From positions 124,001 to 188,000 of the forward strand of contig JAJDUD010000061.1 in the NCBI GenBank assembly GCA_022826825.1: a DNA stretch of 64,000 bases. Direction: 5' to 3'. A program made the translations under genes and the position numbers. The notes below the pieces were generated by a model. The model did no database searches. It was not told the origin of the DNA and saw only the letters and a program-made list of their open reading frames with translations. Source of the DNA: Acidobacteriota bacterium. Its GTDB lineage: Bacteria > Acidobacteriota > Vicinamibacteria > Marinacidobacterales > Marinacidobacteraceae. Below are positions 6,087 to 39,454 of this stretch, piece by piece; position 1 is the first letter of the stretch; each line of letters opens with the position of its first letter.

Positions 6087-7562
6087 ATGCCCAGCCACCT
6101 CAACAATCCCAAACGCCTGGCAGTCGGCCTGCTTGCGGCCGGCGTCGCGTTCTTCCTCCTCGGGGGATTCGCTGCGGCCCAGGAGGAAGAAGCGGAGCCC
6201 AAGCCGCCTGAGGGGCAGACCCACCCGCTCCTTGAGCCTCACGACGTGCTCAACGAGTTCGGGGTGATCAGTTCCAGCGGGCACGACGACGGCGGCTGGG
6301 GGCTCACGCCCGATTTGCGCGTGCCCGAGCAATACCAGTACCGGCGCCGGGATCAGCAACTGAAGGAAGTGGACCTCACGGGGAACCAGCTTCCGCCGAT
6401 CCTCACCGAGATGCGGGTGCTCAGCAAGGAAGTCGCGCCCGGCGACGAGGTGCGCGCCATCGCGCGGGTCGTCTCGCCCTACAACGAGGCCCAGTCGTTC
6501 GTCTCGCTGTTCTACAACCGGGAGCTCGGCCGCGCGGCCACCATGTACATCAACTTCCAGCCGCACGAGAGTGACGACACCCTGTTCCTCGGCCGCGGCA
6601 AGCTGTCCCGCTTCGCGGCGCCGGGACGCTACGTGGTGGGAACCACGATCATCGCCGACAAGGTAGGCGACCGGAAGGCGTACTGGGCCGATTTCCACAA
6701 GGCGATGCAGGAGGAGGACGGTTCGCCGGTCGGCTTCCAGGTCACCGAGAGCGACAGCGTGGACATCACCGCGCCGATCCTGAAGTCCGTCAGCGTGGAA
6801 ACCGAACGCGTGCGGGCCGGCGGAGGCCTGATCAAGTACAGCGTGGTCGCCGAGGACGAAGTTTCCGGCGCCACCGAGGCCGAGACGATCTGGGTGTCCC
6901 CCAGCGGCTACCACCAGATCCGCTCGACCATGGTGATGGTGGGCGGCCAGCCGGGTCTCTTCAAGGGCGTGCTCCAGATTCCCCGGTGGTACGAGGGCGG
7001 CGAGTGGCAGCTCATGCGCATCACGCTCAAGGACAACGCCACCAACATCCGGTACTACTTCAACCGCACCGAGCCCATGATGGAAGCGGCGACGGTTCAG
7101 GTGGACCAGGAAAAGGAAATGATCGACCAGGTCCCGGCCGAGATCCTCGCGGTGCAGTTCACCAAGAAACAGGCCAAGCTGGGCGAGCGGGTAGGGCTGA
7201 CCGTCCTCGCCGAGGACAACCTCTCCGGCGTCTTCAGCATCGAGGGCTACGTCCGGTCGCCGAACGGCGCCGACGCGCTCAAGGTGAAACTCAAGAGCAT
7301 GACCCCCGAAGCCGGCGAGTTCGTGGACGTGAACCGACCGTCCAAGCTGCCGGAACCCAACATCTGGACCGGGAATTTCACGGTCACGGACACCATGGAG
7401 TGGGGCGAGTGGGAACTCGTCCGGCTCGGCGTTTCCGATGAAGCCAGGAACTTCTACACCTACTACGAAGACCGGGATCCCGAGATAGACGGGATCACGG
7501 TCAACTTCTACAATGAAGACACCGAGACCGCCGAAGAAGGCGGCAAGGAGGGTGCGCGATGA
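6087..7562 (+). CDS. Exported Ig-like-domain protein, unknown function
   Basis: A 491-residue secreted protein. The ATG at 6087 has GGAG ten bases upstream and is followed by a clear Sec signal peptide (hydrophobic core AVGLLAAGVAFFLLGGFAAA, cleavage before QEEE). The mature part seems to be all beta, with at least two related domains: stretches such as ITAPILKSVSVETERVRAGG and PAEILAVQFTKKQAKLGERV each introduce a segment with a DEVSG or DNLSG motif, as in Ig-like surface domains. No catalytic residues are evident. It overlaps the next gene by four bases (ATGA), so it is probably made together with the Tat-exported protein and may be its periplasmic partner. Confidence 0.75.
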   Translation: MPSHLNNPKRLAVGLLAAGVAFFLLGGFAAAQEEEAEPKPPEGQTHPLLEPHDVLNEFGVISSSGHDDGGWGLTPDLRVPEQYQYRRRDQQLKEVDLTGNQLPPILTEMRVLSKEVAPGDEVRAIARVVSPYNEAQSFVSLFYNRELGRAATMYINFQPHESDDTLFLGRGKLSRFAAPGRYVVGTTIIADKVGDRKAYWADFHKAMQEEDGSPVGFQVTESDSVDITAPILKSVSVETERVRAGGGLIKYSVVAEDEVSGATEAETIWVSPSGYHQIRSTMVMVGGQPGLFKGVLQIPRWYEGGEWQLMRITLKDNATNIRYYFNRTEPMMEAATVQVDQEKEMIDQVPAEILAVQFTKKQAKLGERVGLTVLAEDNLSGVFSIEGYVRSPNGADALKVKLKSMTPEAGEFVDVNRPSKLPEPNIWTGNFTVTDTMEWGEWELVRLGVSDEARNFYTYYEDRDPEIDGITVNFYNEDTETAEEGGKEGAR

Positions 7563-8899
7563 CGGCCAAGACGATCGACCGCCGCGATTTCTTCAAGCTG
7601 GGCGCGGCCGCGAGCGCCGGGGCGGTGCTTTCCACCCGGAACGCCGCCGGTAGTCCCATCTTCGAGGCGGGGGCCGGGATCCCGCAGGGAGGCATGGTCC
7701 TTCCGGCGAACCCGGGCTTCAAGACGAAGCACCTGGTGACGGTCATCCTGGGCAACGGCGCCCGGAAGATCGACGTCATCGACAACCCGGAGCACTCGCC
7801 CTTCCAGACGAAGATGGCCCCCGAGGGCACCGTCTTCACCGAGGACTACGGCGAGACCGCGAACCTCCACGGCTACATGTACTCCGAGGTGCTCAGCGGC
7901 GTGGACGCTCCCGCCCAACGGCCCCGCTACCCCACCTGGTCCGAGTACATCCGGAAGAAGGCCGGCGGGACGGCGACCGACTACTGGACTCTCCAGGGCG
8001 CGTCCTACTACCGCGCCTGGACCTGGGACGTGAAGCACTTCAGCCAGCATCCCGAATACGGCGTCAAGCACGGGTCCACGAGCCTCACGATGAACCGGAT
8101 CTTCTATCCGGAGCAGCAGCTCACCGGCGCGCAGATCGTGGATCTGAACGTGGAGAAGGGCCTCGGGCACACGCCGAAGGAGCGGAAGCAGGTCGAGGAG
8201 TTCATCGACTCCGTCCTGGCGTCCAAGTCCTATGTCCCGCCGTCCACCCGGGAGCCGGTCATCAACCGGGAGATCCCCTACGGGGACGCTCAGGTGCTGA
8301 CCCTGGTGCCCCAGATCCTCAAGGAGTTCAAGCCGAAGTCCATCACCGCGCAGATCCTCGCCCTCGACGACGCGCACGCCGACTTCGGGTTCTGGGACTA
8401 CAACACGGACTACTGGGAGTACATCAAGCACATCAAGACCACCGATGAGCTGATCGGCAACCTGTGGCGCCAGATCCAGGCGGACGCGTACCTCCGGGAC
8501 ACGACCGCGCTGGTGATCCGTCCCGAGTGCGGCCGCGACGACGAAGTGAACATCTACGGACAACTCGGGCACAGCCCGGGCAACTACTACGCCCACTACG
8601 TGTGGTTCATGGCGCTCGGGCCCGACTTCAAGAAGGGCCACACCGTGACCGAGCGGGTGCAGCGGCGGGACGTCGTTCCGACGCTGACCTACCTCATGTC
8701 CGGTGAGAACGCCGAGTTCGCCACCGGGCACGTCCGGACCCAGATGTTCAAGGACGAGTACAACCTGCCGAAGTACATCCTTCCGCCGACCGCCGAGGTG
8801 AAAGAGCCCGCAGTCGATTGGGAGAAGATCGTCGAAGAACGCCGGACGGCCGAGAAGGTCAAGGAGTTCGCGCGTTCGACCGTCGGTTACGGCGACTGA
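7559..8899 (+). CDS. Tat-exported alkaline-phosphatase-superfamily-like protein
   Basis: A 446-residue protein with a twin-arginine signal (DRRDFFKLGAAASAGAVL), so it is exported folded. The body resembles the alkaline phosphatase/sulfatase fold. ALDDAHADFG matches the Asp...His metal-binding stretch. RPECGRDD followed by GQLGHS and WFMALGPDFKKG parallels the usual 'DHG ... GH ... GP' end of the family, and RDVVPTLTYLM is the typical C-terminal helix. The usual second-site Asp-His pair appears to be Glu-Cys here, and the N-terminal metal-binding Asp (normally in an 'IDG' motif) is not obvious, where GNGARK occupies the position. The activity may therefore be altered or lost. It sits between the Ig-like protein and a zinc-ribbon protein in one operon. 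Confidence 0.65.
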   Translation: MTAKTIDRRDFFKLGAAASAGAVLSTRNAAGSPIFEAGAGIPQGGMVLPANPGFKTKHLVTVILGNGARKIDVIDNPEHSPFQTKMAPEGTVFTEDYGETANLHGYMYSEVLSGVDAPAQRPRYPTWSEYIRKKAGGTATDYWTLQGASYYRAWTWDVKHFSQHPEYGVKHGSTSLTMNRIFYPEQQLTGAQIVDLNVEKGLGHTPKERKQVEEFIDSVLASKSYVPPSTREPVINREIPYGDAQVLTLVPQILKEFKPKSITAQILALDDAHADFGFWDYNTDYWEYIKHIKTTDELIGNLWRQIQADAYLRDTTALVIRPECGRDDEVNIYGQLGHSPGNYYAHYVWFMALGPDFKKGHTVTERVQRRDVVPTLTYLMSGENAEFATGHVRTQMFKDEYNLPKYILPPTAEVKEPAVDWEKIVEERRTAEKVKEFARSTVGYGD

Positions 8900-34392: not shown

Positions 34393-35945
34393 GCGTCCAA
34401 CGGCGAGACGGCCTCGCAGCCGCGAGTTCTGATCGCTCTTGGTGCTCCTGCGCCGCGCTGTTTTTCGTGCCGTTCCTCGTTGCCTGCACGGGTGACCGGG
34501 CGCCCGAGGGAGACCCGGCCCGGCCCAACGTCCTCTTCATCGCGGTCGACGACCTGAACGACTGGATCGAGCCGCTCGGCGGACATCCCCAGGCCCGCAC
34601 CCCCAACCTCTCCCGGTTGGCCGGCGAGGGCGTGCTCTTCACCCGCGCCTACACCCCCTCCCCCTCCTGCAACCCGTCGCGGACCGCGCTCCTGACCGGA
34701 CAACACACCACCACCTCGGGGATGTATTCCAACTACCAGTGGTGGCGAGAGGTCTTGCCCCATGCCGTGACCCTTCCCCGGTATTTCGCGGACAACGGTT
34801 ACTGGGCCGGGGGCGCGGGGAAGATCTTCCACAACAACCAGCCCGATCCCGGGTCCTGGGACGACTACTTTCCGTCGCTCGAGGAGCACATGCCGTCGTC
34901 GCCGCGTCCCGTGGGGGAAGGCACGGTGAACATGCCGGCCTTCCCCGACATGTACGGCGCTTTCGACTGGGCGCCCCTCGACGTGCCGGACGAGGCGATG
35001 GGGGACTACCGGTCGGTGGCCTGGGCCATCGAAGCGCTCGAGCGGGAGCACGAGAAACCGTTCTTCCTGGCGGTCGGGATCTACCGCCCCCACCTGCCCT
35101 GGTACGTCCCCCGGAAGTACTTCGAGATGTTCCCGCTCGCTGAGGTCCAGCTTCCGCGGCTCCTCGAAAACGATCTCGCGGACGTCCCCGAACGCGCCGT
35201 CGAGATCGCGCGCCGCGGCGGGAACTACCACGAGCACGTCCTCGCCGCCGACCAGTGGCGGGAGGGCGTCCAGGGGTATCTCGCCTCCATCGCCTACGCC
35301 GACGCGATGGTCGGCCTGCTCCTCGATGCGCTCGACGCCAGCCCGCACGCGGAGGACACCGTCGTCGTCCTCTGGTCGGATCACGGTTGGCAGCTCGGCG
35401 AAAAGGAACACTGGAGGAAGTTCGCGCTCTGGGAGAACCTCACCCGCGTTGTCCTGATGTTCCGGGTGCCGGAGGGGACCGGCGCCCTCCCCGGGGGCAC
35501 GCCCGCCGGGGTTCGCTCCGGCAGGACGGTTTCCCTCCTCGACCTCTATCCCACCCTGGTGGAGCTCGGCGGGCTACCCGAAAAGGAGGGCCTCGACGGC
35601 CGGAGCCTGGCGCCGCTCCTCAAGGATCCCGATGCCGCCTGGGATCGTCCGGTCATCACCACTTACCAGTTCGGCGAGTACGCGGTCCGCGACGAACGCT
35701 TCCAGTACATCCGCTATATCGACGGGAGCGAAGAGCTCTATGACCTGGAGGCGGACCCGGAAGCGTGGACCAACCTCGCCGGCGATTCCCGGTACGCCGC
35801 GGACCAGGCCCGGTTGAACGCCCTTCTCCCGACCGATCCCGCGCCCTTCGTGGAAACCGACTATCCGCTCATGCCCCACCACATCCCGCCGCTGCGCGGG
35901 CTCGACGACTACCTGGAGCGCAAGGCGGCCGGCGCGCGACGGTAG
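34389..35945 (+). CDS. Lipoprotein sulfatase (type I, formylglycine)
   Basis: A 518-residue sulfatase resembling iduronate-2-sulfatases. The active-site motif CNPSR (Cys-x-Pro-Ser-Arg) should be converted to formylglycine by a modifying enzyme encoded elsewhere. Metal-binding residues are visible in [11 protein letters not shown] and [14 protein letters not shown], and [15 protein letters not shown] is the usual C-terminal element. From GTG 34389 (GTGA overlap with the previous gene) it begins with a lipoprotein signal ending FLVACTG, so it is anchored in the envelope. It would desulfate sulfated glycans or related esters. The combination with fabH and a YyaL-type gene in an overlapping set is unexplained. 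Confidence 0.9.
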
Positions 35946-35990
35946 CGGCGTCCTCCGTTCTTGAGGGGCTGCCGCAAACGCGGCGGGCCG

Positions 35991-36455
35991 CTACGGATCG
36001 TCCCCGTCGGACGCCAGGTGGGCGATGAGGTATCCGAGCGAGACGAGTTCCAGCGTGACCCCCGCGCCGAGGAGCAACTTGGTGGGGGTTTCGAGTCCCT
36101 TCCGCTGGCCGTCGGCGTCATAGCACTTGACGTACTTCGTGTTCTCCGTGGCGTTCTGGCTGAACGTCGTGCTTACGTTCCGGCAGGGCAGCCAGCGCCA
36201 GAGCGCGGCGCCCGCGAACGCCGCCACCCCGCTGATCGCGAACGCCAGCGCGCTGCGCTTCTTGTCGCCCGGCCGGATGCGGCCGGTGGTGATCGTCGAG
36301 GTGTTCTGGGCGCGATAGACCCCACTCGCCGCGGCGATCTCGGCAGCCTCGAGAAGGGAAGCGGCGCCCGCCCCCGCGACCGCCGGGGATGTTCCCGCGT
36401 GGAGGGGCGACACGATCAGGCCGTAGCAGACAGCGACGGCAAGGATCTTCTTCAT
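35991..36455 (-). CDS. Small exported/membrane protein, paralogue 2
   Basis: 154 residues from ATG 36455: a signal peptide (ILAVAVCYGLIVSPLHA), a conserved block AAASGVYRAQNTSTITTGRI, a hydrophobic segment (ALAFAISGVAAFAGAALW), a short region with two cysteines, and a second hydrophobic segment (LLGAGVTLELVSLGYLIA) with an acidic end. No family is recognised. It is clearly paralogous to the protein encoded immediately upstream (36464-36976), eight bases away. It converges with the sulfatase gene; no terminator is obvious in the 45 bases between. Confidence 0.7.
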   Translation of the reverse strand: MKKILAVAVCYGLIVSPLHAGTSPAVAGAGAASLLEAAEIAAASGVYRAQNTSTITTGRIRPGDKKRSALAFAISGVAAFAGAALWRWLPCRNVSTTFSQNATENTKYVKCYDADGQRKGLETPTKLLLGAGVTLELVSLGYLIAHLASDGDDP

Positions 36456-36463
36456 GGCGGCGG

Positions 36464-36976
36464 CTACGGCGACGCCGGCTGCGCGTCGTCCTGCTGGCCG
36501 TCGTCGCGCAGGTGACGCACCAGGTAGAAGAGAGACACGAGCTCGAGGCCGATGCCGGCCCCGAACAGGGCCTTGGTGGGAGTGCTCCAGCCCTTTCGCG
36601 AGCCGTCCTCTTCGTAGCATTCGACCTGAGTCTTGAGTCCTTCGCCGAAGTGCCGGGCGTCACCTCCCTCGCGGCAGGTCAAGTTGCGCCAAAGCGCCGC
36701 GCCGGTGAACGCCAACAGGCCACTAATGGCGAACGCGATGGCGCTCCGCTTCTTGTCGTCGTCCCGAATCCGCCCGGTGGTGATGTTGGCGGTGTTCTGG
36801 GCGCGATAGACGCCGCTGGCCGCGGCGGTCTCGGCAGCCTCGAGGAGCGAGACCGAGGAGATCGGCGGTGCGGCGGCGTTCGCTACCGCCCGCGCGGAAC
36901 GACTCGCTTCCGCATTGGCGTAGAGCGGCATCAGGACCATGCCGTAGACGGTGAGAAAAACGACGACTTCCTTCAT
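36464..36976 (-). CDS. Small exported/membrane protein, paralogue 1
   Basis: 170 residues: a signal peptide (VVVFLTVYGMVLMPLYANA), then AAASGVYRAQNTANITTGRI, a hydrophobic segment (AIAFAISGLLAFTGAALW), a loop with two cysteines, and a second hydrophobic segment (LFGAGIGLELVSLFYLV) with an acidic tail. Block by block it matches the next protein downstream, with the same order, spacing and two loop cysteines (probably a disulfide). A function cannot be assigned; small proteins of this layout may sit in the inner membrane with an N-terminal periplasmic portion. A tandem duplication is the simplest explanation. Confidence 0.7.
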   Translation of the reverse strand: MKEVVVFLTVYGMVLMPLYANAEASRSARAVANAAAPPISSVSLLEAAETAAASGVYRAQNTANITTGRIRDDDKKRSAIAFAISGLLAFTGAALWRNLTCREGGDARHFGEGLKTQVECYEEDGSRKGWSTPTKALFGAGIGLELVSLFYLVRHLRDDGQQDDAQPASP

Positions 36977-37033
36977 GGAGAAGTTCCTTCCCGGCGACGA
37001 GTGATGGCTGGAACCAGTTTGACCTGTGTGGGA

Positions 37034-37555
37034 TCAGTTCCGGATGCGGACGATCACGTTGCCCGCGATCACGGTCTCGCCGCTGCGCTGGAGGCGCAGG
37101 TAGACGCGGTAGGTGCCCGGCAGCGAGAAACGGTGGCTCCCGAAGAAGTAGGTCTCGATCTCCGAGCCTTCTTCGTAGGGATCGCAGTCCGGTTCGTACA
37201 CCGATTCGGTGTCGTCGTCCCAGTCCCAGACTTCTTCGAGGCAGTAGTAGTCCTCGGGGTTCTCGGCGGTGTCCAGATCCTCGAGGCGGGCGGTGATCCG
37301 CACGTCCAGGGACGGGCGGCGTGTCTCGCCGGGCATCCGCGGACGGAGGAACAACTGCCGGGGCGCCCGCAGCGTCAGCTTCGGTTCGACGACGGTTGGG
37401 GCCCACTCGTCGGAGGCCGCCCCGATCATGATGACCCGCGCGTATCCTCCCGACTCGGAGCGCTCGGAGCCCCCGCCGAGGAGCGCCGTGGGCAACAGCC
37501 CGGCCACGAAGCCGGCGACCACGACAGGGAGGCCGCGTGCAGCCCGAATGCGCAT
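37034..37555 (-). CDS. Exported protein, unknown function
   Basis: 173 residues with a signal peptide or N-terminal membrane anchor (GLPVVVAGFVAGLLPTALLG). The mature part seems to be a single beta-sandwich: LTLRAPRQLFLRPRM and SLPGTYRVYLRLQRSGETVI look like strands of an Ig- or PKD-like fold, with a very acidic loop containing two cysteines (YYCLEEVWDWDDD ... YEPDCDPYEEG) that could bind calcium. It begins ten bases after atpC, so it could be read through from the ATP synthase operon. No homologue is recognised. Confidence 0.65.
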   Translation of the reverse strand: MRIRAARGLPVVVAGFVAGLLPTALLGGGSERSESGGYARVIMIGAASDEWAPTVVEPKLTLRAPRQLFLRPRMPGETRRPSLDVRITARLEDLDTAENPEDYYCLEEVWDWDDDTESVYEPDCDPYEEGSEIETYFFGSHRFSLPGTYRVYLRLQRSGETVIAGNVIVRIRN

Positions 37556-37565
37556 TCAGCGGATT

Positions 37566-37991
37566 CTACGACTGTGCCTTGGTTTCTGCCTCCGCCGCCC
37601 GGAGACGGGCCTCCGCGCGGGCCACCGCCTGCTGCGCCTGCTCGACGTCGTAGGCGGCGCCGAACTCCTCGAGACGGGCCTTCGCCCGGTTCAGCGCGCC
37701 CTCGGCCCGCGCCAGGTCGATGTCCTGCGGGCGTTCCGCGGTTTCGGCGAGAACCGTCACGGTGTCGTCGAGGACCTCGAGGAAACCCCAGTGCACGGCC
37801 AGGTAGTGCTCCTCTTCGCCCTGGCGGTACTGAAGCTGGCCGCTGCGGATCTGGTAGAGGAGCGGGGCGTGACCGGGCAGGATGCCGACGTAGCCGAAGA
37901 CCGCCGGGGCCTCCACGTAGTCCACGTCGTCCCGGAACACCACCCCGCCGGGGGTGATGACCTCGAGCCGCAGGCGCGCCGGGGTGCTCAT
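37566..37991 (-). CDS. atpC: ATP synthase epsilon subunit
   Basis: 141 residues. An N-terminal beta-sandwich (LRLEVITPGGVVFRDDVDYV, YVGILPGHAPLLYQIRSGQL) and a C-terminal helical hairpin of alanine, glutamate and arginine are both present, as in epsilon subunits that link the rotor stalk to the c-ring and can inhibit ATP hydrolysis. It is the last ATP synthase gene of the cluster, 14 bases after the beta subunit. Confidence 0.93.
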   Translation of the reverse strand: MSTPARLRLEVITPGGVVFRDDVDYVEAPAVFGYVGILPGHAPLLYQIRSGQLQYRQGEEEHYLAVHWGFLEVLDDTVTVLAETAERPQDIDLARAEGALNRAKARLEEFGAAYDVEQAQQAVARAEARLRAAEAETKAQS

Positions 37992-38005
37992 GTTCGCCGG
38001 ACGCG

Positions 38006-39454
<1,449 letters not shown>

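Follow-up and report, generated by a model that had tools for sequence, protein, structure and literature searches.

A tandem pair of apparently exported two-segment proteins downstream of atpC in one taxonomic family of Acidobacteriota

Subunit c of the ATP synthase (AtpE, PF00137) and the taxonomically restricted (orphan) membrane families of bacteria are the described systems to which the gene pair considered here can best be compared. A glycine-rich repeat in helix 1 is a feature of subunit c, and orphan families of the present kind are common in uncultured lineages. The pair, whose products are termed PB and PA, lies in a window of 64,000 nucleotides (the whole stretch of DNA that was analysed) from an Acidobacteriota bacterium. 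PB and PA resemble AtpE in their signal-like N-terminus, which AtpE shares in this genus, in their two hydrophobic segments, and in the invariant acidic residue of the second; they also adjoin F1 genes. They differ from it by the lack of profile similarity and of a glycine repeat and by a long cysteine loop, and the true atpE is on another contig. Like orphan membrane families, they occur in one taxonomic family and match no curated library, whereas the kept tandem pair, the fixed neighbourhood, and the contrast between loop and helices set them apart.

To the earlier note on this DNA no known family was apparent, and this has held: no match stands in Pfam, NCBIfam, PHROGs, PADLOC, or PDB, profile searches included. 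In Pfam, PA and PB are without any match up to E 5, and the 21 family members yield one weak match (a single member, E 0.17). PADLOC gives no match for either protein. A single PHROGs family of unknown function is found at E 0.15-0.31, which is not convincing. In PDB, PB alone gives no accepted match (best E 0.5, antibody chains), and the family profile finds nothing up to E 5. The match of PA to MakE in NCBIfam was rejected (E 0.032; 13 bits vs. a cut-off of 360; residues 10-39 only). No account of such a protein pair was found in the literature searched, judged from titles and the starts of abstracts. The PB/PA family is undescribed and is missing from the libraries searched.

Paralogy of the pair and its further copies

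PB, the first gene of the pair, is located at 36464..36976 (minus strand) and encodes 170 aa. PA, the second, occupies 35991..36455 (minus strand) and, with the ATG at 36455 as its start, encodes 154 aa; the 209-aa ORF in the PA frame is simply that frame read at its longest. Eight bases lie between the PB stop codon and the PA start. With PB as the query, the two proteins are 60% identical (E=2.9e-46), which makes them paralogues far beyond chance and confirms the tandem paralogous pair recognized in the earlier note.

In PB, a signal-like N-terminus (~1-24) is followed by SLLEAAE...SGVYRAQNT (43-62), a first hydrophobic segment (~78-96), a loop from C101 to C120, a second hydrophobic segment (~135-153) containing E145, and an acidic C-terminal tail. 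PA has the same block order, and the sequence between its cysteines differs. Common to both are the signal-like N-terminus, the stretch SLLEAAE.AAASGVYRAQNT, a hydrophobic segment reading SA(I/L)AFAISG..AF.GAALW, the C...C loop, and a second hydrophobic segment with GAG..LELVSL.Y. The shared block order and the predicted exported two-segment architecture, both proposed earlier, are borne out by the presence of these blocks in each protein. Values of dN/dS between 0.10 and 0.36 in the eight PB/PA orthologue pairs computed indicate purifying selection on both genes, from which it follows that PB and PA are real genes.

A Shine-Dalgarno-like GGAAGGA is present upstream of the PB ATG, and none is found in the 8 bases preceding PA. 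Eight bases separate the genes both in the own genome and in six of seven genus relatives, and 12 bases do so in the seventh; by eye, no clear Shine-Dalgarno-like stretch is seen in seven of these eight gaps. The lack of such a stretch in the 8-base gap makes translational coupling of PA to PB likely. In G009, a genome of another genus, 115 bases separate the two copies, which is too long for translational coupling.

The own genome also contains two further copies at C27:89148-90753, which the earlier note had missed. They are alike over 512 bases at 90% and resemble PB (71 and 69%) more closely than PA (63 and 60%). Since both are PB-like, PA does not always accompany the family. In the locus L010 of this contig, where the copies take up 7158-8754, a transposase resembling IS4 and further small exported ORFs are found close to them (names by eye). 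A small exported ORF between the C27 copies is found in one of the 30 genomes searched, the own genome.

PB and PA might also be secreted membrane-active proteins, similar to two-component bacteriocins and used against neighbours. Small size, apparent export, pairing, glycine/alanine-rich segments, and a variable loop would all suit this role, as would the small exported ORFs and the IS4-like transposase (by eye) around the C27 copies. It is nonetheless very unlikely, as no immunity or processing gene is seen by eye beside the pair, the genes keep one fixed place family-wide apart from the C27 copies, PADLOC gives no match, and the MakE match of PA spans so short a stretch.

The neighbourhood of atpC and P3

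The conserved neighbourhood starts with atpC (ATP synthase epsilon; 37566..37991, minus strand), which was named by eye from sequence and gene order. Upstream, on the same strand, are atpD, found with PF00006, and atpG, also named by eye from sequence and gene order. P3, a PKD-like protein of 173 aa that appears to be exported, is encoded between atpC and the pair (37034..37555, minus strand), and a convergent sulfatase-like gene (by eye) lies downstream of the pair. The earlier note had suggested looking for the pair next to atpC in relatives, and there it does follow atpC, with P3 in between: all nine genomes that could be read, namely the own one, G001-G007, and G009, have the order atpG-atpD-atpC-P3-copy-copy. 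In G008 a single copy is seen because the contig ends after it. A promoter scan of 35850-38200 found no promoter-like site, and co-transcription is therefore neither shown nor excluded by it; a terminator scan of the same region found two terminator-like sites vs. 1.2 expected, which is uninformative.

P3 is comparable to PKD-domain exported proteins by its WDW(D/G)D motif, its beta-sandwich model, and one homologue at the PF00801 cut-off, and differs from them in that P3 itself matches no Pfam model. Of three homologues from the class, one passes PF00801 (23.6 vs. 23.5 bits) and two fall below. The model has a mean pLDDT of 61.6, higher in the domain, and a fold search with it finds PKD and Ig-like folds weakly, every match having an E-value above 0.001. 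The stretch EDYYCLEEVWDWDDDTESVYEPDCDPYE is nearly invariant among P3 proteins of the taxonomic family that bears the pair.

P3 is present in 136 of 193 genomes of the class, commonly without the pair. No PA or PB match is present in 20 sampled P3 loci, some of which are short, from 19 genomes outside the family; atpC occurs in one of these loci, in G012, on the other strand. Since P3 is widespread and its sampled loci outside the family lack PA and PB and rarely include atpC, the pair either joined or arose in a rearranged neighbourhood. The place beside the atp genes is thus not by itself evidence for a role in the ATP synthase. In the G012 locus (L074; sister family), a DNA adenine methylase-like gene (by eye) separates P3 from atpC, and P3 comes after a DUF255-like gene on the other strand, which amounts to a rearranged neighbourhood. 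Several P3 copies outside the PB/PA-bearing family adjoin a leucyl aminopeptidase-like gene (by eye).

These data bear on the proposal that PB and PA, as membrane proteins expressed together with the F1 genes, assist or regulate the F-type ATP synthase. The position after atpC and P3 in 9 of 9 readable genomes and a hairpin of two segments, the second of which has an invariant glutamate, speak in its favour. It is considered unlikely, because the distribution of P3 and atpC described above allows the position to reflect a rearranged neighbourhood, two extra copies are found on another contig, and Pfam gives no match of any kind.

Far less probable still is that the pair is a duplicated and remodelled relative of subunit c forming an ion path or ring of its own, although the order of signal, two segments, and glutamate in segment 2 is the same and the atpE of the own genome likewise has a signal-like N-terminus. 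An acidic residue midway along helix 2 is indeed found, E145 being invariant in 21 of 21 sequences. Segment 1 has no glycine repeat in the motif given above, and the loop of about 40 residues is long for such a relative. In hhalign comparisons of the family with 25 subunit c sequences, probabilities of 0.3% and 0.2% do not support kinship, and a PF00137 search of the own genome finds one place, on C37, which is neither PA nor PB. That atpE (L132; G000:C37:28050-28241) is on a contig other than that of the F1 genes.

Conserved segments and a variable loop

After the signal, the mean hydropathy over 19 residues peaks at 1.73 and 1.60 in PB and at 1.74 and 1.87 in PA. In the controls it does not exceed 1.18 in atpC, atpG, and DUF255 and is 0.71 in P3, although the soluble atpD has one peak of 1.58, near the 1.60 of PB; the atpE of the own genome reaches 2.56 and 1.77. 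From these profiles, segments 1 and 2 of both proteins are likely membrane segments.

Across 21 family sequences, 40 columns are invariant. They include R58, Q60, N61, R77-S78-A79, S85-G86, L95-W96, C101-R102, and C120, and, in the C-terminal half, G139-A140-G141, L144-E145, V147-S148-L149, Y151, and H155. The two invariant cysteines flank the loop, the invariant glutamate E145 sits in hydrophobic segment 2, and about 40 residues connect the two segments. The most variable parts of the family alignment are the signal, the linker, and the residues that the two cysteines enclose. By eye, no fewer than five loop types can be told apart among the 21 sequences, and the loop differs by copy and by lineage; the cysteines and a C(Y/F)..(D/N)G.R block remain conserved next to the variable stretch.

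The side of the membrane on which the loop lies can be argued in two ways. Invariant cysteines around a variable stretch suggest, from the alignment, a loop on the outside. If both segments span the inner membrane and the signal is cleaved, the loop would be cytoplasmic, where a disulphide is unlikely. The three to six K/R residues that precede segment 1 in the 21 sequences fit badly with an outside position, and the charges do not settle topology. The AlphaFold2 model of PB is poor (mean pLDDT 49, pTM 0.27), with helices at 2-28, 44-60, 72-98, and 132-163, all of low confidence, and the fold and assembly are therefore unsupported by it.

In the tree, most PA rows separate from PB rows, and the PA and PB types are distinct in the genus. 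Both sides hold rows from other genera, with weak support, as 11 of 18 inner branches are weak and the bootstrap is unsettled; the PA of G001 lies outside the PA group. Recombination is observed in one genome, G007, the PB of which is a clear mosaic gene. Its first 143 bases are identical to the PB of G006, so that the 5′ part is of the G006/G003 PB type, and around segment 1 it has 59 bases identical to PA genes; 0 of 300 permutations reach either match. Its loop shares 93% identity over 42 aligned bases with that of the second copy in G009, a match that the permutation test does not place within its 25 best pairs. A conversion suspected in G001, where identity within its own pair is 93 vs. 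74%, is not confirmed by permutation (1.0), and no exchange is found for the own pair of the window (0.64). The permutation test ignores uneven constraint along the gene, and PA-PB matches near columns 54-68 may reflect conservation only.

A mechanism that joins these observations can be put forward tentatively, as one with a fair deal less than an even chance of being right: PB and PA would form a lineage-specific coupled envelope pair, hetero-oligomeric through conserved helices, with the cysteine-bracketed loop as a variable contact surface. After atpC and P3, PB and PA would probably be read from one transcript, and PA would probably be translated by coupling to PB. Each protein seems to be exported by its N-terminal signal; its two hydrophobic segments would form a hairpin, with the loop between them perhaps closed by a disulphide. 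PB and PA would then probably assemble in the cell envelope as a hetero-oligomer, the conserved helices meeting through small-residue positions and the invariant E145, S148, and Y151. The loop is the likely contact surface because, leaving aside the signal and the linker, the greatest differences between PB and PA, and among lineages, fall there. The earlier note had supposed that the two proteins act together or on different partners. Joint action is plausible in view of the fixed tandem order, the genus spacing of 8-12 bases, and the lack, in most of these gaps, of a clear Shine-Dalgarno-like stretch; different partners are indicated indirectly by loops that vary by copy and lineage.

Nearly as likely as this coupled pair, and likewise only a possibility, is an ordinary lineage-specific envelope protein with a tandem duplicate, the copies being redundant or separately used, with no joint complex and a loop under little constraint. 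Signal, linker, and loop may simply be the least conserved columns, PB-like extras exist on C27 without PA, recombination between tandem copies requires no function, and the own pair of the window is without sign of exchange. Against such a duplicate stand the retention of both copies in all nine readable genomes, the distinctness of the PA and PB types in the genus, and the conserved cysteines and C(Y/F)..(D/N)G.R block beside the variable stretch.

A recognition module diversified by recombination has also been considered. Here, gene conversion between copies would act on a fixed hairpin scaffold, and a loop cassette would be swapped not only between copies but also between strains and between genera of animal-associated Acidobacteriota; the products would serve as envelope receptors or adhesins whose partners change. 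This reading is improbable, and slightly the more so because the own pair of the window shows no exchange.

Distribution and significance of the family

The family is found in 10 of 10 genomes of one taxonomic family and in none of the 183 others of the class (193 in total), with at most 19 candidates scored per genome. A search of relatives matched 12 of 60 genomes, the own included; after the rejection of two, the same 10 genomes remain, all of that taxonomic family. The rejected matches are antisense to a peptidase-like frame in G044 (E 5.9e-4) and within a histidine kinase-like frame in G037 (E 0.0066; both by eye). In a sample of the phylum, 30 of 396 genomes gave matches at E up to 0.5, of which that of the own genome alone is convincing; since no more than nine candidates were scored per genome, this sample may have let a faint relative pass. 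The partial matches of the other 29 (E 0.011-0.49) were taken as chance. Among the viral contigs, plasmids, and phages searched, the family is absent. When 832 kb of fetched DNA, in which overlapping loci are counted more than once, was scanned for the architecture, 20 hits were obtained; of the 18 with the S-hydrophobic motif, 17 belong to the PB/PA family and one resembles a transporter fragment.

In the named collection, PB alone finds no locus, and the family alignment finds nine, from MAGs titled Acidobacteria (7), Acidobacteriota (1), and Vicinamibacteraceae (1). As far as searched, and with one of the nine named relatives bearing the title Vicinamibacteraceae, the family is confined to one taxonomic family of Acidobacteriota. 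For MAGs other than bin61 (MPMW), an origin from sponges or corals is a guess from their names.

What results is a small family defined with its limits, a fixed neighbourhood, and invariant residues, in uncultured Acidobacteriota. At least one of these bacteria comes from a marine sponge: work on Aplysina aerophoba lists bin61 (PMC5649159). Helices that stay fixed, set against a loop that changes between its two cysteines, suggest in a form open to testing which part of the proteins may determine specificity. Were the reading of loop exchange true, the family would be a new example of modular envelope-protein diversification in animal-associated bacteria.
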